DNA of 64,000 nucleotides from Branchiostoma lanceolatum (lineage: Eukaryota > Chordata > Leptocardii > Amphioxiformes > Branchiostomatidae): contig NC_089723.1 in the NCBI RefSeq assembly GCF_035083965.1, positions 4,797,501 through 4,861,500 of the forward strand. The letters are read 5' to 3'. The notes below the pieces were generated by a model. It was given only the letters and a program-made list of their open reading frames with translations, was not told where the DNA came from and made no database searches. Shown one piece after another: positions 8,159-64,000 of this stretch. The position numbers and the translations under genes were made by a program. Positions within the stretch are counted from its first letter, which is position 1, and every line of letters starts with the position of its first letter.

Positions 8159-8364
8159 TATCATGTTACTGTTTGTGCTTCCTTCTGTTATTACAGGTTT
8201 GCGATAGCAAAACCTGTTCTGTTTTTGCATCCAAGGCAGGGGGCGGCCATGTTGGATGTGACCATTTTATTGGGAGGGATGTTTTTTCGCTTATGTTGGG
8301 TGTGACTATTTTGACGGAGGGGTGTTTTTCTTGCTAGTTTTCTTTTTTTGTTTTCTTGCTAATT

Positions 8365-11300
8365 TTTCCTAGTTTTGGGTTAGGTGTGACCATTTTGACC
8401 GGAGGGGTAGTTTTTGCCACTAATTTTAGGTGTAAGAGATGAATGTTATTAGTGTGGTGGTGTTGTGACCTTGCCGTTGGCACAAATGGACACAAGGCCC
8501 ACTGTACTAAAGGACGAGCAAGGTCCACTGAGCATCATGTTGTTGTGATCTTGTCGAAAAGTAAGGGACGACAAGATCCCCAACGATAGAGGGTTAATAA
8601 AGATTTGTTATTTAATGTGATGTTGGATTAGAAAGTGTTGGAATTGATAATATTGGGGGTGTTTTTTGTCGCTAATGTTGGTTCCCTATATTTTTCCTAG
8701 TTTTGGGTTAGGTGTGACCATTTTGAAGGAGGGGTGGTTTTTGCCACTAATTTAGGTGTAAGAGATGAATGTTATTAGTGTGGTGGTGTTGTGACCTTGC
8801 CGTTGGCACAAATGGACACAAGGCCCACTGTACTAAAGGACGAGCAAGGTCCACTGAGCATCATGTTGTTGTGATCTTGTCGAAAAGTAAGGGACGACAA
8901 GATCCCCAACGATAGAGGGTTAATAAAGATTTGTTATTTAATGTGATGTTGGATTAGAAAGTGTTGGAATTGATAAAATTGGGGGTGGTTTTTGTCGCTA
9001 ATGTTGGTTTCCAATATTTTTCCTAGTTTTGGGTTGGGTGTGACCATTTTGACCGGAGGGGGAGTTTTTGCCACTAATTTTAGGTGTAAGAGATGAATGT
9101 TATTAGTGTGGTGGTGTTGTGACCTTGCCGTTGGCACAAATGGACACGAGGCCCACTGTACTAAAGGACGAGCAAGGTCCACTGAGCATCATGTAATGTT
9201 GTGATCTTGTCGAAAAGTAAGGGACGACAAGATCCCCAACGATAGAGGGTTAATAAAGATTTGTTATTTAATGTGATGTTGGATTAGAAAATGTTGGAAT
9301 TGATAATATTGGGGGGGGGGTGGTTTTTGTTGCTAATGTTGGTTCCCTATATTTTTCCTAGTTTTAGGTTAGGTGTGACCATTTTGAAGGAGGGGTGGTT
9401 TTTGCCACTAATTTTAGGTGTAAGAGATGAATGTTATTAGTGTGGTGGTGTTGTGACCTTGCCGTTGGCACAAATGGACACGAGGCCCACTGTACTAAAG
9501 GACGAGCAAGGTCCACTGAGCATCATGTTGTTGTGATCTTGTCGAAAATTAGGGACGACAAGATCCCCAACGATAGAGGGTTAATAAAGATTTGTTATTT
9601 AATGTGATGTTGGATTAGAAAGTGTTCGAATTGGTAATATTGGGGGTGGTTTTTGTCGCTAATGTTGGTTTCCAATATTTTTCCTAGTTTTGGGTTGGGT
9701 GTGACCATTTTGACCGGAGGGGTGGTTTTTGCCACTAATTTTAGGTGTAAGAGATGAATGTTATTAGTGTGGTGGTGTTGTGACCTTGCCGTTGGCACAA
9801 ATGGACACAAGGCCCACTGTACTAAAAGACGAGCAAGGTCCACTGAGCATCATGTTGTTGTGGTCTTGTCGAAAAGTAAGGGACGACAAGATCCCCAACG
9901 ACAGAGGGTTAATAAAGATTTGTTGTTTAATGTGATGTTGGATTAGAAAGTGTTGGAATTGATAATATTGGGGGGGGGGGGGGTTTTTGTCGCTAATGTT
10001 GGTTCCCTATATTTTTCCTAGTTTTGGGTTAGGTGTGACCATTTTGAAGGAGGGGTGGTTTTTGCCACTAATTTTAGGTGTAAGAGATGAATGTTATTAG
10101 TGTGGTGGTGTTGTGACCTTGCCGTTGGCACAAATGGACACGAGGCCCACTGTACTAAAGGACGAGCAAGGTCCACTGAGCATCATGTTGTTGTGATCTT
10201 GTCGAAAAGTAAGGGACGACAAGATCCCCAACGACAGAGGGTTAATATAGATTTGTTATTTAATGTGATGTTGGATTAGAAAGTGTTGGAATTGATAATA
10301 TTGGGGGGTGGTTTTTGTCGCTAATGTTGGTTCCCTATATTTTTCCTAGTTTTGGGTTAGGCGTGACCATTTTGAAGGAGGGGTGGTTTTTGCCACTAAT
10401 TTTAGGTGTAAGAGATGAATGTTATTAGTGTGGTGGTGTTGTGACCTTGCCGTTGGCACAAATGGACACAAGGCCCACTGTACTAAAGGACGAGCAAGGT
10501 CCACTGAGCATCATGTTGTTGTGATCTTGTCGAAAAGTAAGGGACGACAAGATCCCCAACGATAGAGGGTTAATAAAGATTTGTTATTTAATGTGATGTT
10601 GGATTAGAAAGTGTTGGAATTGATAATATTGGGGGGGGGGGTTTTGTCGCTAATGTTGGTTCCCTATATTTTTCCTAGTTTTGGGTTAGGTGTGACCATT
10701 TTGAAGGAGGGGTGGTTTTTGCCACTAATTTTAGGTGTAAGAGATGAATGTTATTAGTGTGGTGGTGTTGTGACCTTGCCGTTGGCACAAATGGACACAA
10801 GGCCCACTGTACTAAAGGACGAGCAAGGTCCACTGAGCATCATGTTGTTGTGATCTTGTCGAAAAGTAAGGGACGACAAGATCCCCAACGATAGAGGGTT
10901 AATAAAGATTTGTTATTTAATGTGATGTTGGATTAGAAAGTGTTGGAATTGATAATATTGGGGGGGTGGTTTTTGTTGCTAATGTTGGTTCCCTATATTT
11001 TTCCTAGTTTTGGGTTAGGCGTGACCATTTTGAAGGAGGGGTGGTTTTTGCCACTAATTTTAGGTGTAAGAGATGAATGTTATTAGTGTGGTGGTGTTGT
11101 GACCTTGCCGTTGGCACAAATGGACACGAGGCCCACTGTACTAAAGGACGAGCAAGGTCCACTGAGCATCATGTTGTTGTGATCTTGTCGAAAAGTAAGG
11201 GACGACAAGATCCCCAACGACAGAGGGTTAATATAGATTTGTTATTTAATGTGATGTTGGATTAGAAAGTGTTGGAATTGATAATATTGGGGGGTGGTTT

Positions 11301-11935
11301 TTGTCGCTAATGTTGGTTCCCTATATTTTTCCTAGTTTTGGGTTAGGCGTGACCATTTTGAAGGAGGGGTGGTTTTTGCCACTAATTTTAGGTGTAAGAG
11401 ATGAATGTTATTAGTGTGGTGGTGTTGTGACCTTGCCGTTGGCACAAATGGACACAAGGCCCACTGTACTAAAGGACGAGCAAGGTCCACTGAGCATCAT
11501 GTTGTTGTGATCTTGTCGAAAAGTAAGGGACGACAAGATCCCCAACGATAGAGGGTTAATAAAGATTTGTTATTTAATGTGATGTTGGATTAGAAAGTGT
11601 TGGAATCGATAATATTGGGGGTGGTTTTTGTCGCTTATGTTGGTTCCCTATATTTTTCCTAGTTTTGGGTTAGGTGTGACCATTTTGACCGGAGGGGTGG
11701 TTTTTGCCACTAATTTTAGGTGTAAGAGATGAATGTTATTAGTGTGGTGGTGTTGTGACCTTGCCGTTGGCACAAATGGACACAAGGCCCACTGTACTAA
11801 AGGACGAGCAAGGTCCACTGAGCATCATGTTGTTGTGGTCTTGTCGAAAAGTAAGGGACGACAAGATCCCCAACGATAGAGGGTTAATATAGATTTGTTA
11901 TTTAATGTGATGTTAAATTAGAAAGTGTAGGAGAC
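8365..11935 (+). repeat. 328-bp satellite, 11 units
   Basis: The anchor gaatgttattagtgtggtgg recurs at 8441, 8767, 9095, 9429, 9756, 10089, 10417, 10746, 11075, 11403 and 11731, spacings 326-334 bp. Each unit carries two inverted repeats: gaccttgc...gcaaggtc, and a perfect 10-bp stem gatcttgtcg/cgacaagatc with a 12-base loop. A G-run after 'gataatatt' varies from about 4 to 14 bases and causes most length change. A diverged lead-in lies at 8225-8360 and a degraded partial unit at 11930-12030. Short frames inside units are chance products of repetition. Confidence 0.95.
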
Positions 11936-16830: not shown

Positions 16831-17452
16831 ATCTGGGGTCCGTTTGGACCCCAGCGGGCAACACGCACACTTTAGAGTATAACTTCCGCAAAAATTGGCC
16901 AATCCCAGTGAAAATTCCTCAGGAGTTGTAAGACATGTACATGAACAAACTCATAGAATGATTTTTTTTCTCCGACGAAAAATGTTGATATGGCACACAT
17001 TCAAACACGCCTGGGGTCCAAACGGACCCCATACGGTCGGATGAGGCCATTCGCACTTTCGGCATACAATACTTCGAAATACGATTTTAGAGGGTGTTTT
17101 GGGAAGAAGATCGGTTATTTTCCTCAGATGGGGTCACTGACCTATAGGTCACATCTTTATTCATCTGGCCGGGTTGACTTATTCGGTCAGCCAATGAGAG
17201 AGTGCAGATTTATCAAGCTCAACCTGATTGGTTGAAATAGTCAATTTAATTAGGGGCACTACTAGTACTCTGACAGGTGCAGACACAACTTCACTACTCC
17301 CTGGCTCACATCCTTGTGTTGTACATGTAAGTTATTGTTGTGTCCTACTGAAGTTGTGTAAGTGCAGTTGAGAAGGTTAAAACTTTTCTGGTGGTATTTG
17401 TCGACACACACAGTGTTTTTCTTCCGTGAATAGTTTCATCAGGTTGGTAAGT

Positions 17453-18078
17453 CACTGAAGGAAAAGACTCTTTTTACACAACCAAGGGATTTATTCAACC
17501 GACGTTTCGGTGACCCTCTGTCACCTTCTTCAAGGCAATTCTGACTGGTTCACATAGCAATGCAGCACAGGTGTTGCTGCTTATACATATTAATGAGATG
17601 CAAACGCAAAATATTTACATATGTACAAACACAGGGATGACATCACTATGCGGTCCCAAACGTACAGAAGTGTAACACATACACAACTACATATCGATAG
17701 ACTAACACGTTGGATTAAGGAGTCTGTATGGATCAGGAAATCCGCTCCAGTCATGAACCGTGATGAGGGGGATATAGACTCAGTCACGTTTGGGACCGCA
17801 TCCTAAAGAAATAATCGTTGCATTGTTTGTTGATCGATATGTAGTTGTGTATGTGTTACACTTCTGTACGTTTGGGACCGCATAGTGATGTCATCCCTGT
17901 GTTTGTACATATGTAAATATTTTGCGTTTGCATCTCATTAATATGTATAAGCAGCAACACCTGTGCTGCATTGCTATGTGAACCAGTCAGAATTGCCTTG
18001 AAGAAGGTGACAGATGGTCACCGAAACGTCGGTTGAATAAATCCCTTGGTTGTGTAAAAATAGTCTTTTTCTTCAGTG
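17453..18078. mobile_element. Foldback element with 247-bp inverted arms
   Basis: The arm 17453-17699 is repeated inverted at 17833-18078 with few changes, around a 133-base centre. Outer ends read CACTGAAGGAAAAGAC and the inverse. Each arm contains 'gaaggtgacag...gtcaccgaaacgtc' when read outward, a stem followed by GAAACGTC that resembles half of a hammerhead core. No frame longer than about 60 codons exists, so it is non-autonomous. Confidence 0.85.
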
Positions 18079-18780
18079 TTTTTCTTATTTTAACACTGCA
18101 TGGAAACAAAGATTTCTACAAGTTTGCAAGCTTGGACATTATGGTAAAACCTGACATTTCTTCGCTATGTACACGAATTTTCTACCCCTCTGTCACCAAG
18201 ATTGGACACGAGTGCGCACAATAGTGCACAAAAAGTATCCAACGTTTCCCACCTTAGGAAACATCCCGTGTCGGGACGTTGACATTAACATTAACAAATT
18301 ACAATAGAGAGTTGTGAAGTGCGTGAAAATTTACGTTGAGCAAGGAGGCCCTTGCTTTGAGTAGTTGTTTAAAGTTTTTGGCTAAAAATGACGTAAATCA
18401 GTAAGAATATTCAACCTTCTTACGTAAACCCCTGTTACATGTCTACACTATCGGGCCGCGGGGAAGTCTTGAATATCGGCGGTGATCAATAGCGCATTAA
18501 ACAAAATGTGTGGCGTAGCGTTGTACTAGAAAAATAATAGCATATGAATATGGGTGCCTGGCAGAGCCCATCCATGCATAGGGTTTCAAATTGGGAGAGA
18601 TCCATTTCTGACTGGTCAATTCAATCCAATTATTTATCCAAATACCAACATTGCAGACATACAACAAACTTTAGCCTCTATGCCATAGTCGCTTTTTGCG
18701 TGGGGAGGGAAATGGGCGAAACATGTTGCATTTGCTCCCGCAAATGTTGCCTTTCTAGTTACCTTCGTCGACGAATGGTT
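18079..18780. other. No gene seen
   Basis: Mixed A/T-rich sequence between the foldback element and the next repeat field. No domain, splice pattern or repeat copy could be assigned. Confidence 0.4.
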
Positions 18781-25922: not shown

Positions 25923-26094
25923 AGCCTCTACCAGGCTCCACAGGTCGATGGAAAAATAGTAGAAATTGGCCAAATAGACGGATAACATACTAACAGGTCG
26001 CAAACTGTAGCGGACCAACTCCTCTGGCATGTTATCCGTCTATTTGGCCAATTTCTACCATTTTTCCATCGACCTGTGGAGCCTGGTAGAGGCT
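25923..26094. repeat. Near-perfect 66-bp inverted repeat upstream of the plus-strand oxidase
   Basis: Arms 25923-25988 and 26029-26094 match with one difference around a 40-base spacer. It lies 230 bp before the first coding exon of the plus-strand multicopper oxidase. It could be a MITE or a local cruciform; no target duplication was identified. Confidence 0.85.
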
Positions 26095-28575: not shown

Positions 28576-31436
28576 ACTATCATAAAGATCTATACTCAGT
28601 TGCTCAAGTTGTGCTGTCCACAAAATCACCTACAAACGACACTGATATCGTAACCTTCTTTGCTCATCTATTTTACCATCGTGACTCTCACCCTAACGCT
28701 TTAGGCCAACAGTAGTTATCAATGATGAGTAGTTGAATACTTTTAACAAGAAAAGCATGTGGAAAAGCACATTTGAAATGAGAATCTTTGTTATTCTTAT
28801 ACTTTATTCAGGTAGCTGTCACAGTTGTCAACCAACTAATGACAGATGCCATCACCATCCACTGGCACGGTCTGCACATGCGCAGTACGCCGTGGATGGA
28901 CGGGGTCCCATCCGTCATACAATGTCCCATCATGCCTCACGAGAGCTTCACCTACCGGTTTCGCGCGTTCCCTGCAGGGACGTTTTACTACCACTCCCAC
29001 ATGAGCAGTCAGATGGCCGACGGACTCTTTGGCGCCCTCATCATACATAACAGGTGCCTGCACTTTTTGTTGCGTCCAGAACCGTGCTTTATCCAGAACC
29101 GTGCACAGGCACAGTTCTGGATAGTGCCTGGGGCAAGGGACGTTAGAATTTTTCTCTTCCCTTTCTTGAATATTCTTATTTCAAGAAAATTTTGTAAGAA
29201 AATACTTTTAAAGAATTTCTTAACTCGTGGACAAAATGTGTTTCAAACACAGAATTTTTTTTTTTCTTCTTTTAATTAATAAACTTTTTTCTGTGTATAA
29301 GGAGAAACAAGAAAAAAATATATCTTTGATAGTGTAAGAATCAAAGTCATCTAATTACGGTTAAAATATTCCTATGTCCAGCTGCACAGTATAAAGCAAG
29401 ATGGTACGTGCCTTTGCTTTGTTTTTAAACTCGACGATGGTTTTGTTTCCAGTCAGACAACCATACCTTCTTTTCCCCTCCTGTTGAATGACTGGTATCA
29501 CGAGGAAGCGGAGACTCTGGATATCGCCAGCAAGTACAATCTTTACCACAGCGGTGCCGGGCAGTTCGAATACGATGAACCTTCAAGAGGGTTTTCAGTG
29601 GACGGCGTAGAAATCACTGCTCGTCAGTTTGTCTCGGCCTTGATCAATGGACGCGGAAGGTACAAGTCAAACAAGGCACCTCTGTCTAAATTTACCGTGG
29701 AGGAGGGGCAAAAGATTCGCATAAGGTTGATCCACGTTGGAGGTGATCACACCTTCAAAGTTTCTATTGATCAGCACGCGCTTCGCGTGCTTGCCTCTGA
29801 TGGCCACGACATCAACCCGCTGACATCATTGTGTCACCAGGGGAAAGGTACGACTTCGAGGTTGACACCAGCGCATCTCCTGACTTGTACTGGATCCGGG
29901 CAGAAACTCTTCGGGAGGGAACCTGTGTGACGTGTTCGTTTTTCTCCGAAAACATTACAATCACGCCTGATGACATTGTTGAGGATACCAGAGCGGTGCT
30001 AATCTACCAAGGCACCTCTTCAGATGAAGATCCAACGTCTCAAGCTCGCGAGTGTACCCCTGAAAACCCCTGCATTTTTCTTAACTGCCCATTTGAAGGA
30101 TATCCGGAAGACCGTCATATAGTCTGCATCAGCATTGCCAACACCAGCACCCAGACATCACCCCAGGACGACGCAGCTGAAGACGACGATGTTGAGGAGT
30201 ATTTCCTGAACTTTGGATTCCATGTGGGCTCCAACATCAACGGGCATCGGTTTCTTCCTCCGACTGCGCCGCTTTATCAATCTCCACGCACCAATATGAT
30301 CATCCCGTGTCCGCTAGAGAACTGTGAACAGGGCTGCAAATGCACGCATATTTTAGACTTGCCCTTCAACAAGACCATCCAGCTTGTTCTAGCAAGTTAT
30401 CAAGGGCCGAGGTTTGGAAACGCGCATCACAACATCCATATTAATGGATACACCTTTGATGTCCTGGCAATGGGGTATCCTAGTCTCGATAGGACTACAG
30501 GTAAGCTATGAGGAATAATAATTATTTTGTGGTGGATTATATGTTTTGAAAATAAATGCTACATCTTTATTTCTCTCAGACAAAGAAACAAGATAACAAG
30601 AGTCTAGGCAAAATGGTCTGTTTGTAGCAGAGGGGTTTTTCATGTTTCTCAACATTTCTCTAAATGAAGAATTCGTTACGATTCTGTTTAGGGGTCTTCA
30701 AGGACAGCAATCCCGATGTTGTGTGCAGTAATGAGAAATGCACTACCGTCACATGGCGCCAGGGGTCGCCTTCCTTCAATGTGAAGAACGCACCACAAAA
30801 GGTCACAGTCTTGATGCCAGCCCACGGATACACGGTTGTCCGATTTAGGTGAGGCAATTAGCATATGGTATAGCTGAGCTGGCATATGATACCACTATAT
30901 TTGCTATGATGACTTTTAAGTCTCAATTCCTACCACTTACTCGACATTTTCTCATAGAATGAATCCATGATGGAATGCTGACTTTTTTTAGGTCTGACAA
31001 CCCTGGTTTCTGGTTTCTCCATTGTCACCAGTCCATGCACCTTGCCGAGGGAATGGCCATGGTGCTGAACGTGGCAGCTGACCGCCACCCAGCGCCCCCT
31101 AGCGGCTTTCCCAAGTGCGGCAACTTCAGCTGGAGCGAGGAGGAGTACGAGGCTGCCATGTCCGGAGCCTGGCCTCCTAATCAAAAGGTTTATCGACGTG
31201 CTTCTATATTAGAGTTTTCACTTTGCTCCAATAACCGCATTTTCCATCATGGCTCATGTTTACATCACAGAATAAACGAAGAATTCCCCTGACTTCCTAA
31301 AACTATCAACATACTAGATATCATTACAATCCACCCATTACATCCATTGAATTCACTGCTCAAAGTATGTGGGAAAACGAATGCATACACACCCAAACTA
31401 GTAGACTCTTCCATTGACCCCATGACCTGAAATGAC

Positions 31437-31720
31437 TGTCGACACAGTACCAACTTTTAAAATGCTGTTAGGTTGTTCATAACTTCAGGTAAGATGGGAT
31501 CAGGATGTCTTTGTTCACTTGCCGTCGATTTAGATAAGAATAGTTGTAATCTTAATGGTGAATTCCTTTCGCTATTATATTTAACTTTTGTTCTGAACAC
31601 AAAGTAGTTATGTAAGACGTAACCTGATTGGCTGACAGCTAGCTTCCCAGCGAACTTTGTGGGTTTTCCTCAAGATGAGCTTGTGGTAAGTCTCTGATTG
31701 ACTAAAAAGCTGTTTGTTGG
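31437..31720. mobile_element. 284-bp insertion in intron 6 of the plus oxidase
   Basis: The sister intron reads 'gaaatgacgccac' without interruption; here TGAC is doubled (31433-31436, 31721-31724) around 284 bases. The right half, 'cgtaacctgattggctgac', is related to 50636-50830 in a FAXC-like gene intron, so the element is dispersed. Confidence 0.55.
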
Positions 31721-32079
31721 TGACGCCACGTGCACTAATACCCCAAACCTTTGTTCATTAGAGCAGGGCTGATCTCAGGAGCGCATTTGCCGAGCGGAAT
31801 CAGGACTACTAGAAGAAGTATGTATTATCAGTTACCGCAATGTTAGTAGATGGGAAGGGTCTGGTCGTGTTCAAAGAATTTTACTTTTATTAACGTAAAA
31901 TGATTAACATTTGCCATAGGAGCCGGCGCGACATGAGACGTGGGAGCTGGTGGTTGCAGTACTGGGATCAGCTGCAGGTGGCGCTGCAGTCGCGGCAGGA
32001 CTGATGATGTTGCTGCAAAAGAGGAGAAACTCTAAAAACCACGATTTGAATTAGCCGAAGGACGATGATTTTTTTTTAT

Positions 32080-34070
32080 TCAAAGAAGAATCAAATACAT
32101 GAACAAAGACAAAGTGGCGGCTAACTCAAGTTGTGCACAACTTATATTATAGCCGCCACTTGTACAGTATGGAAACAAGATGTTTGACGACACACTAAAA
32201 CATGAATGACAGATGTAAACTAGTTGGTGTGAGTCCAACACCCCCCCCCCCCCAGTGGAAAAGAAAGTGAAAGAACACATATAACTAAAAGCGTTTAGTT
32301 GCTAAGACATAATCTTGGACAGCTAACATGATATTATAGTTAATGCTAGAAGAAATAATGGAACTGCCACGTAAAATCAAAAGTTGTTTGGCATTATCAG
32401 ACATGGTGTTGAAATTAACTATGTGTTCAAGGATCCCAGAAAGCTTACCGAAGAGGACTGAACGCTGGTAAGGCCACAGCAAGTAATTTTTATGGATGAC
32501 ATCAGCGCGCTCATTAATTTTCGCCAGATTTCTATAAAAAAAAACAAGAAATTTCATTGCCCTTGGACGGTGGTCAACATGCCAAAAATTGGCAAATATG
32601 CCTTGCATTATATTATATAATGTCCTTGGTTGTAGTGAATCTAGATGTATACACAAGGTGTTTCATTGCATATGAATACCCAGACTGGTGTAGTTGCTTC
32701 AGGTACAACAAGCTCTTTTCTGTATTTGTTGTAGTTAGTCTATTGAGATGTATACACATCTACAAGGACATATTTACTGTTGAACCGAGGAGGTTTTATA
32801 TTATATATGAAACCTCATTGGTTGAATACAGGAATAAAAGACCTGTTGGTCGTGATATCATATTTTGTTGCCTCAATTCTTGTTTAACAAGATTTATGAT
32901 CTCAAAATTTGAAAATATAGGAATCTTGTTTTTTATTGGCCTGCCTTGTTTTTTTTTGCCCTATCTCATTAATTTCGGAGTCTGAGGAGGATGTCATCCA
33001 TAAAATTTACTTGCTGTGGCCTAAGTATATATAGGGCAATGTAATAGGTAATGACTGATCGTTTCGTATGGACATCCGCAGCTACATGCTGGGCTTGCAA
33101 CAAGACCCCGTGTAAAAAGACTATGGTTCAGGCTGTAGGTGCCCATACGAAGACGAGTTATGAGAACACAGGAATAACGAGAACCAATGGTAAAATGGTT
33201 ACATTTGGCGGGGCGTACAGATTTAAAAAGATGTGTACGAAATTCTAAATAGTCAAGAGAACGGAAAGTCAAACTCAAATTGTTCCAACTGGTGATGGCA
33301 TAAGGAATGAAGGACTTTTCAAAAAGATTAGTAGAAAATTTGATGGTTCTCAAGTTTTTACTGTTTCTCAATTCGTAGGTACATGTCTCAGTAATTGTGT
33401 AAGGAAGCAAAGTAACAAGATCTTCACGAGTGCATCCGTTTACAATATTATGAAATAGTAGAAGGCGATGAATATGACGCCTGTCGGACAAAGTCTCCCA
33501 GCCGAGTTCTTGAAGAGTTGAAGTGTATGCTGACCCTTTAACAGCACCGGACACAACGAGGGAACAATGATATTGTAGTCTTTCGACAAGGTCAGATTCC
33601 TCGATTGTGCACCCGTGCCAGACAACGTCAGCATACTCTAATAAAGAGCGTATAAAAGACTTGTATATTTTTTCTAAAACATGGCGGGGTAATTTGAATT
33701 TTAAAGCACTAAATAGGTTAACATTTTTTGAGGATTTAGAAACAATACTGTTTATATGATGGTGCCAAGACGTATTGAAGCTGAAAATGACCCCAATATG
33801 CTTGTGACTAGAAACTGACTTTATAAGAGAATTATTTAGAAAAAGAGGAGGGTGGACGCTGCGGATTCTTTTAGAAGTGAAACAAATTTCTTCAGTTTTG
33901 GCGGGGTTTAGTTCCATCAACCAGTTGGTAGACCATGAATGAACTTTTTCCAGGTCTGAATTAAGTGAGGCCGCGGCGTCAGTTGGGCTGTCAACAACTT
34001 GAAGAAGTGAGCTGTCGTCAGCGAAGAGAAAAAGGCTGGGAGACGAGGGCGATGATTGAATGCACATAGT
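32080..34070 (-). mobile_element. Non-LTR retrotransposon (LINE) ORF2 3' half, broken
   Basis: Minus-strand frame 34067-33021 encodes part of a reverse transcriptase with the catalytic F-A-D-D box near its start, thumb-like sequence, and a terminal C-x-C-G...H-x4-CP motif as in CR1/L2/Jockey-type LINEs. The last part of the protein continues at 32656-32285, ending ATKRF, after an insertion of roughly 300 bp and loss of frame. The 5' end is truncated at a TATC microsatellite (34100). It is inactive. Confidence 0.8.
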
Positions 34071-34137
34071 TATGAAAAGAAATACCCAAGATTTATATCT
34101 ATCTATCTATCTATCTAATCAGTACCCCCCCCCCAGA

Positions 34138-34530: not shown

Positions 34531-34749
34531 TCCAATATAACTAAAAATGTTTGGTTTCTTTGATATAGTCCTTTGTCGCTAACATAATTTTTCAGTTAAT
34601 ACTAGGAGAACTAAGTCTGCATCTTGCAATTCGAGAATTTCAGCCACTGTGTCGCCGTGTTTTCTATTAAGCACGACTTCTAACCAGACATGGCAGACAT
34701 CTCACTTAATGTCGATATCAATATAATATAACCATGCCCATTACACACA

Positions 34750-34955
34750 GAACATGCTCCAGTTTCACGCACATGAAGTCCTCGGATTCCTGACTTTATA
34801 GCTGCCGTGGCCGATAGGTACAATGTGTTGCTCACTGTACCTGTCGGCCACGGTAGCTATAAAGTCAGGAATCCGAGGACTTCATGTGCGTGAAACTGGA
34901 GCATGTTCTGCCGACAGGTACAGTGAGCAACATATTGTACCTATCGGCCACGGTA
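34750..34955. repeat. Compound palindrome A-B-A'-B'
   Basis: Arms 34750-34822 and 34836-34908 (73 bp each, two mismatches, 13-base loop) form one hairpin. The following 34909-34955 is an inverted copy of 34804-34850, which spans the inner arm ends and loop. The result is two overlapping inverted repeats that can fold in alternative ways. Confidence 0.9.
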
Positions 34956-35509: not shown

Positions 35510-38500
35510 CTAATTCGAATTCGAGTTTCTCCTCTTCTGCAGCCACATCATCAGTCCTGCCGCAACTGCAGCGCCGCCTGCAGCTGATCCCAGTACTGCA
35601 ACCACCAGTTCCCACGTCTCATGTCGCGCAGGCTCCTATGACAAATAGGAAGTAAAATTCTTTTGACACGACCAGACTCTTCCCATCTGCTAACATTTTG
35701 GCAACTAGATACCAGTCTCCTCCAGCAGTCCTTATCCCGCTCGGCAAATGCTCTCCCGAGATCAGCCCTGCTCTTATGAACCGAGGTTTGTGGTATTGGT
35801 GGCGTCATTTCAGGTCATGGGGTCAATGAAAGAATCTACTACGCCAAAAATAATTACTCAAGCAACTGGATAAAATTTTGAAACAGTCAGACGTTTCAGA
35901 CAGCATCCACTGTCTTTCGTCACATCATACTACCTGGATGTCTAACTTTCATCAACGTAAAGAATCTACTAGTTTGGGTGTGTATGCGCTACATTTTGTG
36001 GTTCCTCCTTATACTTTGACTAGTATAATCAATGGATGTAATGTAATGATGTTGATAGTTTTAGGAAGTCAGGGGAATCCCTAGTTTATTCTGTGATGTA
36101 AACATGGGCCATGATGGAAAATGCGGTTATTGGGGTAAAGTGAAAAGTATGCTCATAACTCTAATATAGAAGCACGTCTACAAACCTTTTGATTAGGAGG
36201 CCAGGTTCCGGACATGGCGGCCTCGTACTCCCCCTCGCTCCAGCTGAAGTTGCCGCACTTGGGGAAACCGCTAGGGGGCGCTAGGTGGCGGTCTGCTGCC
36301 ACGTTCAGCACCATGGCCATCCCCTCAGCAAGGTGTATGGACTGGTGACAGTGGAGGAACCAGAAACCAGGGTTGTCAGACCTAAAAAAAAGGGGCAACA
36401 TTTCATCATGGATTGACCTGCATTCATTCTATAAGAAAATGTCGAGAAAGTGGTAGCAATTGAGAAGTTATCATAGCAACTATAGTGGACTTTCCCTTTT
36501 AACACGGATCGAATAGCCCTGACTTCCGGCTCAGGTGCACCATGTTCTAATAGATCTCTTGCCAATTACAGCGGGGATTTTGAATTTCCCGGGACCGTGC
36601 ACCAAAACGAGGCTGCCGTTGGTGCTCACTACGTATAGGCCTCGTTTAAGTGTACAACCCTGAAATATTCAAAATGGCCACCGTAAATGGCAAGATGTCT
36701 ATTGCCTCACCTAAATCGGACAACCGTGTATCCGTGGGCTGGTATCAAGACTGTGTCCTTTTGTGGTGCGTTCTTCACACTGAAGGAAGGCGGCCCCTGG
36801 CGCCATGTGACGGTAGTGCACTGCTCATTGCTGCACATAACATCGGGATTGCTGTCCTTGAAGACCCCTAAACAGAATCGTAACGGATTCTTTATTTAGC
36901 GAAATTTGATTTTCATCAAGAACATGAAAAACCCTTCTGCTACAAAAATACCATCTTGCCTAGATTCTACTCTTATGGGGACAAATAAATGTTTCTTTGT
37001 TTGAGACAAGTAGCTTTTATTTTAAAACATATAATCCACCACGAAATGAATATTATTCCTCATTGCTTACCTGTAGTCCTATCGAAACTAGGATACCCCA
37101 TTGCCACGACGTCAAAGGTGTATCCATGGACATGAATGTTGTGATGTGCGTTCGCAAACCTCCACGTTTGATAACTTGCTATAACAAGCTGAATGGTCTT
37201 GTTGAAGGGCATGTCCAAAATATGCGTGCATTTGCAGCCTTGCTGACAGTTCTCTAGCGGACACGGGATGATCATATTGGTACGTGGAGATTGGTAAAGC
37301 GGCGCGGTGGGAGGAAGAAACCGATGCCCGTTGATGTTGGTGCCCCCATGGAATCCAAAGTTCAGGAAATACTCCTCAACATCGTCGTTTTCAGCTGCGT
37401 CGTCCTGGGGTGATATCGGGTTGTTGGTGTCGGCAATGCTGATGCAGACTATATGACGGTCTTCCGGATATCCTTCAAATGGGCAGTTAAGAAAAACGCA
37501 GGGGTTTTCAGGAGTACACTGGCGAGGTTGAGACGTTGGGTCTTCATCTGAGGAGGAGCCTTGGTAGATTAGCACCGCTCTGGTATCCTCAACAATGTCA
37601 TCAGGCGTGATTGTAATGTTTTCGGAGAAAATCGAACACGTTACACATGTTCCCTCCCGAAGAGTTTCTGCCCGGATCCAGTACAAGGCAGGAGATGCGC
37701 TGGTGTCAACCTCGAAGTCGAATCTCTCCCCTGGTGACACAATGATGGCGTCCACTGTCAGTGGGTTGATGTCGTGGCCATCAGAGGCAAGAACGCGAAG
37801 AGCGTGCTGATCAATAGAAACTTTAAAGCTGTGATCACCTCCAGCATGGATCAACCTTATGCGAATCTTCTGCCCTTCCTCCACGGTAAATTTAGACAGA
37901 GGTGCCTTGTTCGACTTGTACCTTCCACGTCCATTGATCAAGGCCGAGACAAACTGACGAGCAGTGATTTCTATCCCGTCCACAGAATACCCTCTTGAAG
38001 GTTCAGCATATTCGAACTGCCCGGCACCGCTGTGGTAAAGATTGTACTTGCTGGCGATATCCAGAGTCTCCGCTTCCTCGTGATACCAGTCATTCAACAG
38101 GAGGGGAAAAGAAGGTATGGTTGTCTGACTGGAAACAAAAACCATCGTCGAGTTTAAAAACAAACCAAAGGCACGTACCATCTTGCTTTGTACTGTGCAT
38201 TTGGATATAGGAATATTTTGACCGTTAAGGGATTACTTTAATTCTTTTGCCATATATGCATATGAAGATGCAGCGCAGGCAGAAAATTGTTTAGACGTAT
38301 CTGGAAAAATACTTAATAGAAGTCTAATGTACTTTTATTTCCCTTACTACAAAGGCTACGGATGTCATATTTGAGATGTAGGTACCTTTAGGAAAGGTCA
38401 GAAAACCTGGCCATAAATTATGCTACTTTGGGCCTTATGCATAATTTTTGCATATCCCTTACCATAAAAGCTACGGATGTCATATTTGAGATGTAGGTAC

Positions 38501-63337: not shown

Positions 63338-63452
63338 TGTAAATGATAAAAGTGATTTATGTACAATGTGAGAAAACATATCACTTTGAACTGCATAAGC
63401 AGGAAATTGTCTTGTCGATGAAGTCTAGACATCCAGGGTTCCAGGTAATAAG

Positions 63453-63590
63453 ATATGCCAAAAAACAGTTACTCCAGTAAATGTATACTATTTTGGAACC
63501 GGTCAGACTTTTCAGGTGGCATCCACTACCTTTCGCCAGTGACACAGACAATGCCACTTGAAACATCTGGCCATTTCCAAAATCATATCA
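63453..63590 (-). mobile_element. Second member of the hammerhead-like small element family
   Basis: Shares 'gccaaaaa..agttactc', 'tttgga/aac..gtcagac' and 'gcatccact' with 35841-35958. On the minus strand: CTGGCGA, stem AGGTAG/CCACCT around loop TGGATG, then GAAAAGTC. Two core positions differ from the consensus (A to G in CTGANGA; C to A after GAAA). A 32-bp inverted repeat (63492-63523 and about 63552-63583) surrounds it. Confidence 0.55.
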
Positions 63591-63599
63591 ACTTGCTTG

Positions 63600-64000
63600 T
63601 TTAACTGTTTTTGAGTGTAGAAAGTTGTCTTATTGTGCAAACACCTCTTCTGCACTGAAAATGTACAAGCTTATCAAGAGACATGGTTCGGGCAATCACA
63701 CAAGGGAAAGTATAGAGAGTTCTTGCTCAAGGTGTGGCTCTTTGTAAACTCATGACAGTTAACAATTATTTTTTCCCTTCAAAAGACTATGAATCATCAC
63801 AGTAGTGTGTCATACTATGTAATAGATGTTCTTTCTACCTAGGTGCTGAAAACATTCATGCCAATATTTTTTCTGGAAGTTGGCGTCCTTTAATGTTCTA
63901 CTAAGTTGTGCCTGTCCCTGGTGCTGAACAGCACTCACATAACCACAAGCAATGCTGTAGGTACCATTCTTACTATACTTGTCACAATCATTACAGTAGT
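63600..64000. other. Intron or flank, no exon supported
   Basis: A/T-rich sequence upstream of the first visible exon of the minus-strand coiled-coil gene. A short possible exon near 63930-63960 (minus) has splice-like borders but no support. Confidence 0.35.

Follow-up and report, generated by a model that had tools for sequence, protein, structure and literature searches.

The insertion and its empty site

The window analysed here, a 64,000-nucleotide stretch of Branchiostoma lanceolatum DNA, contains an oxidase gene and an inverted paralog of it, and one of the two copies carries a 118-bp insertion (35841..35958, here called A) that is absent from the other. The open reading frame adjoining the insertion site matches Pfam Cu-oxidase. 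Two blocks that are common to both paralogs and read as coding in frame flank the site, which therefore probably lies in an intron of the oxidase gene. Between the inverted oxidase copies there is also a 361-residue open frame (33021-34106, minus strand), which by eye resembles the end of a non-LTR reverse transcriptase and had no Pfam match at 1e-3.

Insertion A is bounded by two identical copies of the 12-mer AAAGAATCTACT (35829..35840 on the left and 35959..35970 on the right). Because an adenine follows both copies, the target repeat can be counted as 12 or 13 bp and the unit, correspondingly, as 118 or 117 bp. Pairs of random window positions had an exact 12-mer in common in 19 of 2,000,000 draws, a count that includes the window's own repeats. 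The empty site lies in the inverted paralog at 31399..31436 on the minus strand, as seen by blastn and in the sequence itself, and at ~31399-31410 this strand reads GGTCAATGGAAGAGTCTACTAGTTTGG, a single copy of the repeat without any insert, which differs from both copies at A in two of 12 positions. The left flank of A matches the paralog at 94.6% over 37 bp, down to 31400, and the right flank at 84.6% over 449 columns from 31410 onward, both on the minus strand. These are blastn matches; a MAFFT alignment of the two loci placed the left flank wrongly, the paralog carrying ~296 bp of extra sequence there (31437-31732, beside the empty site, and missing at 35801-35805). The initial annotation had described a 118-bp mobile insertion with an exact 12-bp duplication and a known empty site in a duplicated oxidase gene, and both statements are borne out. 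The empty site also indicates that A inserted later than the duplication of the oxidase gene.

Comparison with a relative described below divides A into two parts of opposite orientation. A pseudo-LTR-like arm occupies 35841..35922 with its sense on the minus strand, its inner boundary being uncertain by 1-2 nt, and a 35-nt tail (35924..35958, plus strand) is inverted relative to the arm. There is no inverted repeat of at least 12 nt within A.

Two further insertions in the window

We searched the window by blastn with a 142-bp stretch covering A and, besides the self match and short chance matches, recovered one cluster, at 63414-63613 and on both strands; the best match was 76.9% identical over 78 bp (E 5e-11). 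This cluster marks a 205-bp insertion, B (63414..63618), which consists of a one-sided tail of ~43 nt (~63414-63456, minus strand), an arm (~63457-63539, minus strand) homologous to that of A, and the same arm again in inverted orientation (63540-63618, plus strand), the 62-nt arms being 76% complementary. The 13-mers at its edges, AGGAAATTGTCTT (63401..63413) and AGAAAGTTGTCTT (63619..63631), resemble a target repeat and agree at 11 of 13 positions. Random 13-mers from the window matched at 11 or more positions in 11 of 200,000 draws, so that across the 45 x 35 offsets compared chance would yield ~0.09 such pairs, and the repeat of B is therefore not strong by itself. It is strengthened by the fact that its inner edges coincide, within ~2 nt, with both outer ends of A.

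The A tail and the B tail matched each other better than all of 2000 shuffles and all of 2000 window stretches, and profiles of the arm and the tail found no copy in the window beyond these two insertions (next best E 1.6 and 0.39). In sequence, A looks like B minus its first arm, with the tail joined, reversed, directly to one arm. The initial annotation had proposed to look for a Penelope-like element with the same ends, and B, with both outer ends of A and a target repeat of its own, supports this link. It had also named the case that A might be an internal fragment of a longer element with inverted ends; B does exceed A in length and is inverted, but A, with one arm fewer, reaches out to the same two ends as B and is therefore not an internal fragment.

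The third insertion, C, is 650 bp long (17424..18073) and comprises a tail (17424-17452, minus strand), an arm (17453-17707, minus strand), a spacer (17708-17823) and a second arm (17824-18073, plus strand). The exact 13-mer CAGTGTTTTTCTT stands at both of its edges (17411..17423 and 18074..18086), and because the first 5 nt of the right copy also fit the arm, the duplication measures 8 to 13 bp; among the 72 x 40 offsets compared, chance would give about 0.03 such repeats. The arms, 255 nt long and inverted, are 98% complementary, with a 29-nt extension at one side only. As they are still nearly identical, C looks young. A clear homology of C to A or B did not emerge: for the stretches that follow the core, 491 and 871 of 2000 shuffles scored equally well in local alignment, and the similarity of the tails was weak, with 22 (A-C) and 20 (B-C) of 2000 shuffles as good locally and 3 and 26 of 2000 globally. 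Judged by these alignments, C is an insertion of the same shape from a different family. For a derivative of a Penelope-like element, a location in AT-rich DNA would be expected. The target repeats contain nine A/T of 12 positions in A and nine of 13 in both B and C, against 57% A/T in the window, although three sites are too few for a preference to be read from them.

The window also holds two long palindromes, at 34748-34910 (163 nt, 93%) and 25923-26094 (~172 nt, 86%), which look like other mobile elements. Neither contains a hammerhead core, and none of the six motif places of the looser scan lies inside them.

The hammerhead-like core

The arm of A contains a hammerhead-like core at 35890..35923 on the minus strand (GTGACGAAAGACAGTGGATGCTGTCTGAAACGTC). 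Read from 35923 to 35890, its boxes follow the order GTGACGA, A, a 6-bp stem and GAAACGTC, and from this order a cut would be predicted between 35890 and 35889. Similar cores are found in the first arm of B (63506..63539, minus strand, with CTGGCGA and GAAAAGTC) and in the left (17501..17533, minus strand) and right (17998..18030, plus strand) arms of C. A box is damaged in each of them: C3 is G in A, as the initial annotation had noted, A6 is G in B, and C3 is T in C.

Using a strict motif that was defined after A, B and C had been seen (CTGANGA, A, six pairs, a loop of 4-8 nt and GAAANGTC, up to one mismatch being allowed in the first box and up to one in the stem), we found exactly four places in the window, namely one in A, one in a single arm of B and two in C, one per arm, and none in 200 dinucleotide shuffles. 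A looser version of the motif added two places outside the three insertions. A scan for the first box (at most one mismatch) with a stem of at least six pairs returned six places, where 20 shuffles averaged 0.7, and among the six were A and the mirror pair 17533-17505 and 17998-18026 in the arms of C; with the stem lowered to at least five pairs there were nine places, where 20 shuffles averaged 2.35, and these nine were mostly unrelated. The letters of stem II differ among A, B and C, yet 17 of 18 cells are paired, a weak observation given that it comes from three sequences with C counted once. The pairs were counted by hand, the automatic alignment of the four cores having set a one-base gap in the first box and not in the loop.

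The fold itself is less convincing than the order of the boxes. As a 118-nt unit, A folds no better than its shuffles (z -0.80 on the minus and -0.87 on the plus strand; on either strand 41 of 200 shuffles did equally well), and within the whole unit the pair probability of stem II is 0.07-0.08, although the stem does form in the 34-nt core taken by itself. In stem I, the four positions adjoining the core are unpaired and four further out pair. Rfam gave no match in the whole window at gathering score. With E up to 10 there were three matches in the A region (35700-36100), seven in C and five in B, all below gathering score and none of them a hammerhead; the best-scoring of these was mir-734 (E 0.017) in the B region, a match that follows the hairpin of B. 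Of the hammerhead-like fold first ascribed to A, then, the box order on the minus strand stands, and a fold of the unit better than shuffles, or one that Rfam recognises as a hammerhead, does not. In the Penelope-like element (PLE) PAc (Poseidon) of Anolis, the hammerhead was not cleaved without protein, and so a poor fold alone is not decisive; the C3G change, for its part, abolished cleavage of a PLE hammerhead (PMC11167929). Judged by its sequence, the motif of A is broken, and it was probably unnecessary for the jump of A.

We then considered where the core lies relative to the junctions. In A (35922-35924) and B (63539-63540) alike, the CUGANGA box has the inner junction at its 5' edge; the arms of C extend ~174 nt further upstream. 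The joint between the two arms of B, 63539/63540, corresponds to C3/U4 of the core, and the joint of tail and arm in A is at the same place within 1-2 nt, so that by our own reading all three arms of A and B start there. Because the joint in A falls on C3, the G at this position may be a junction base and not a point change. The C-to-G difference may thus be a product of tail fusion at the 5' edge of the core, as these two insertions suggest. The predicted cut sites after GUC (35890, 63506, 17501 and 18030), on the other hand, all lie inside intact arms and away from any insertion end or junction, which indicates that the RNA that was copied was uncut at those sites.

Origin of the insertions and a proposed mechanism

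PLEs carry a set of published marks, namely one-sided tails, inverted pseudo-LTRs, target repeats and minimal hammerheads (PMC3846280, PMC11167929, PMC7761336), and A, B and C fit this plan. Pseudo-LTR arms, often inverted head to head, are present in B and C, and A keeps a single arm. The optional short one-sided tail measures 35 nt in A, ~43 nt in B and 29 nt in C. A target site duplication is exact and accompanied by an empty site in A, exact over 13 bp in C and matched at 11 of 13 positions in B. A putative minimal hammerhead motif in the pseudo-LTR is suggested by the box order at four places, each with a damaged box. On this basis we consider it likely that A is a minimal non-coding insertion made by PLE machinery. 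Since no Penelope protein was found, this assignment rests on architecture: Pfam searches with five of the 17 window ORFs of at least 150 residues, and with one of 80 residues, gave no reverse transcriptase or GIY-YIG domain. Pattern scans for relatives in viral and prokaryote genome contigs returned none and are silent on copy number in the host. Among the papers listed by literature searches on hammerheads or foldbacks in lancelets and on lancelet Penelope elements, none has a title or opening abstract that describes the A/B repeat, which is weak evidence as to what has been published.

The closest parallels are the Pen families of Adineta vaga and the PAc element. The pseudo-LTRs of published PLEs are often accompanied by an adjacent inverted one, and one of the two bears a ~31-bp tail; the head-to-head junctions are palindromic, and in Adineta the target repeats measure 8-10 bp (PMC3846280, PMC8969392). 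The Pen families and PAc have in common with the insertions reported here inverted head-to-head pseudo-LTR arms, a one-sided tail of ~30-40 nt, a target repeat and a minimal hammerhead in the arm. The target repeats seen here, at 12-13 bp, are longer than those given for Adineta (PMC3846280). Solo pseudo-LTRs, comparable to the single arm of A, are also known; for Adineta, that report describes several without target repeats, and one insertion that formed without one (PMC3846280). Compared with the Pen and PAc elements, A differs in that its tail is inverted against a single arm, the second arm is absent and no coding part was seen. Most likely, then, A is a known type of element in an unusual minimal arrangement.

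Minimal type I hammerheads, which have no helix III, occur in PLE pseudo-LTRs and are dispersed by thousands in animal genomes (PMC7761336, PMC6155905). Like these dispersed motifs, A has a core without helix III and is scattered and non-coding (PMC7761336); unlike them, A comes with known insertion boundaries, a target repeat and an empty site, and its core lacks C3 and stem I.

Several other explanations were weighed against a PLE origin. The hammerhead-like core could be a chance hairpin in an ordinary insertion, as might be expected from the unremarkable fold of A, the lack of an Rfam match and the unrelated places found by the loose scans. The same strict box order nevertheless recurs in A, B and C, all of them inserted elements, and is missing from the shuffles, albeit with a motif set afterwards, and the letters of the stem vary while its cells stay paired; we regard such a coincidence as unlikely. 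Long inverted arms in B and C would also suit the remnant of a foldback or MITE-type DNA transposon moved by a transposase. This is quite unlikely, however, because the arms are not terminal at the side that bears the tail in B and C, A has no such inverted repeat, and the target repeats are long and unequal in length (12-13 bp, and 8-13 bp in C).

A metazoan retrozyme, which starts as a hammerhead monomer released from concatemeric RNA by cutting and inserts after circularisation and reverse transcription, would account for an element that is short, non-autonomous and non-coding with a hammerhead-like core. Target repeats of metazoan retrozymes, when present, exceed 4 bp (PMC7229834), and retrozymes may depend on PLEs for their mobility (PMC8969392). 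However, retrozymes are built of direct tandem repeats and carry canonical type I hammerheads (PMC7229834), whereas the arms here are inverted (B and C) or single (A), and A shows no tandem monomers, no canonical type I fold and no boundaries at a cut site. Its one core is broken, with G at C3, no stem I beside the core and no Rfam match, and the copied sequence is uninterrupted at each predicted cut site, be it in A, in the arm of B that has a core or in either arm of C. We consider a retrozyme very unlikely. The initial annotation had found an origin by self-cleaving, circular or concatemeric RNA attractive; given the inverted arrangement, the cut sites within intact sequence, the broken core and the lack of direct tandem units, we reject it for the A, B and C copies. 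Use of the ribozyme by some parent element is possible.

A further explanation stays within the PLE plan. A may have been inserted as a PLE-made, B-like hairpin and then have lost one arm by replication slippage, in which case the 118-bp form itself never moved. Long hairpins are prone to arm loss, and a two-armed form with the ends of A exists in B. Since the repeat copies of A agree with each other and not with the paralog, little time may have passed since the insertion, 12 bp being a weak clock, and nothing decisive speaks against arm loss. All alternatives considered, we give this history a real but minor chance.

Returning to an origin of A by PLE machinery, its products can be compared with what is known of PAc. 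The PAc protein cuts and extends both target strands, and reverse transcription begins at internal positions of the RNA; the tail spans the segment from one start site to another, and the ends of insertions coincide with these two sites (PMC11167929). Hammerhead mutants of PAc still insert in vitro, and cleavage may have a role at a later stage of the cycle (PMC11167929). We propose that a PLE reverse transcriptase with a GIY-YIG endonuclease, acting in trans, would cut both target strands ~12-13 bp apart, and that reverse transcription would start inside the element RNA at one of two points, where the tail has its outer end or where the pseudo-LTR ends. For A, this would give a ~35-nt cDNA of the tail only and a ~82-nt cDNA of the arm that extends as far back as the 5' border of the hammerhead core. 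The two cDNAs would be joined head to head, perhaps with an overlap of 1-2 nt, and the target duplication would result from repair. For B and C, each of the two cDNAs would run through an arm and so produce the inverted pairs, and in each case the hammerhead motif would be copied uncut.

If A is of PLE origin, two short cDNAs joined head to head are the simplest reading, which we favour with a little less than even confidence. Later loss of one arm of a B-like hairpin is nearly as likely on that premise, and self-priming or a template switch seems doubtful. We tentatively extend the idea to short PLE insertions at large, though we would sooner expect this extension to fail than to hold: they might arise from two independent target-primed cDNAs, one per end of a staggered cut and begun at alternative starts (the tail end and the pseudo-LTR end), which in the A/B family would stop at the 5' edge of the core, so that the core would act as a template end or stop and not as a ribozyme. 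Under such a two-ended mechanism, A, with a tail-only cDNA and one arm, would be its smallest legible product.

As to the way in which inverted pseudo-LTRs and one-sided tails arise in PLEs, one report favours self-priming (PMC3846280), while the PAc study demonstrated in vitro that both strands are cut and extended and left the later steps for validation (PMC11167929). Short non-coding copies with an exact empty site, such as A, hold both cDNA start points and the joining point within 118 bp, and a genome-wide set of A-like copies would directly test two-ended priming and any role of hammerhead cleavage in insertion.

Elsewhere in the window, self-blast revealed a tandem array at 8359-11932, with a period of ~329 bp and ~11 copies that are ~96-97% alike.
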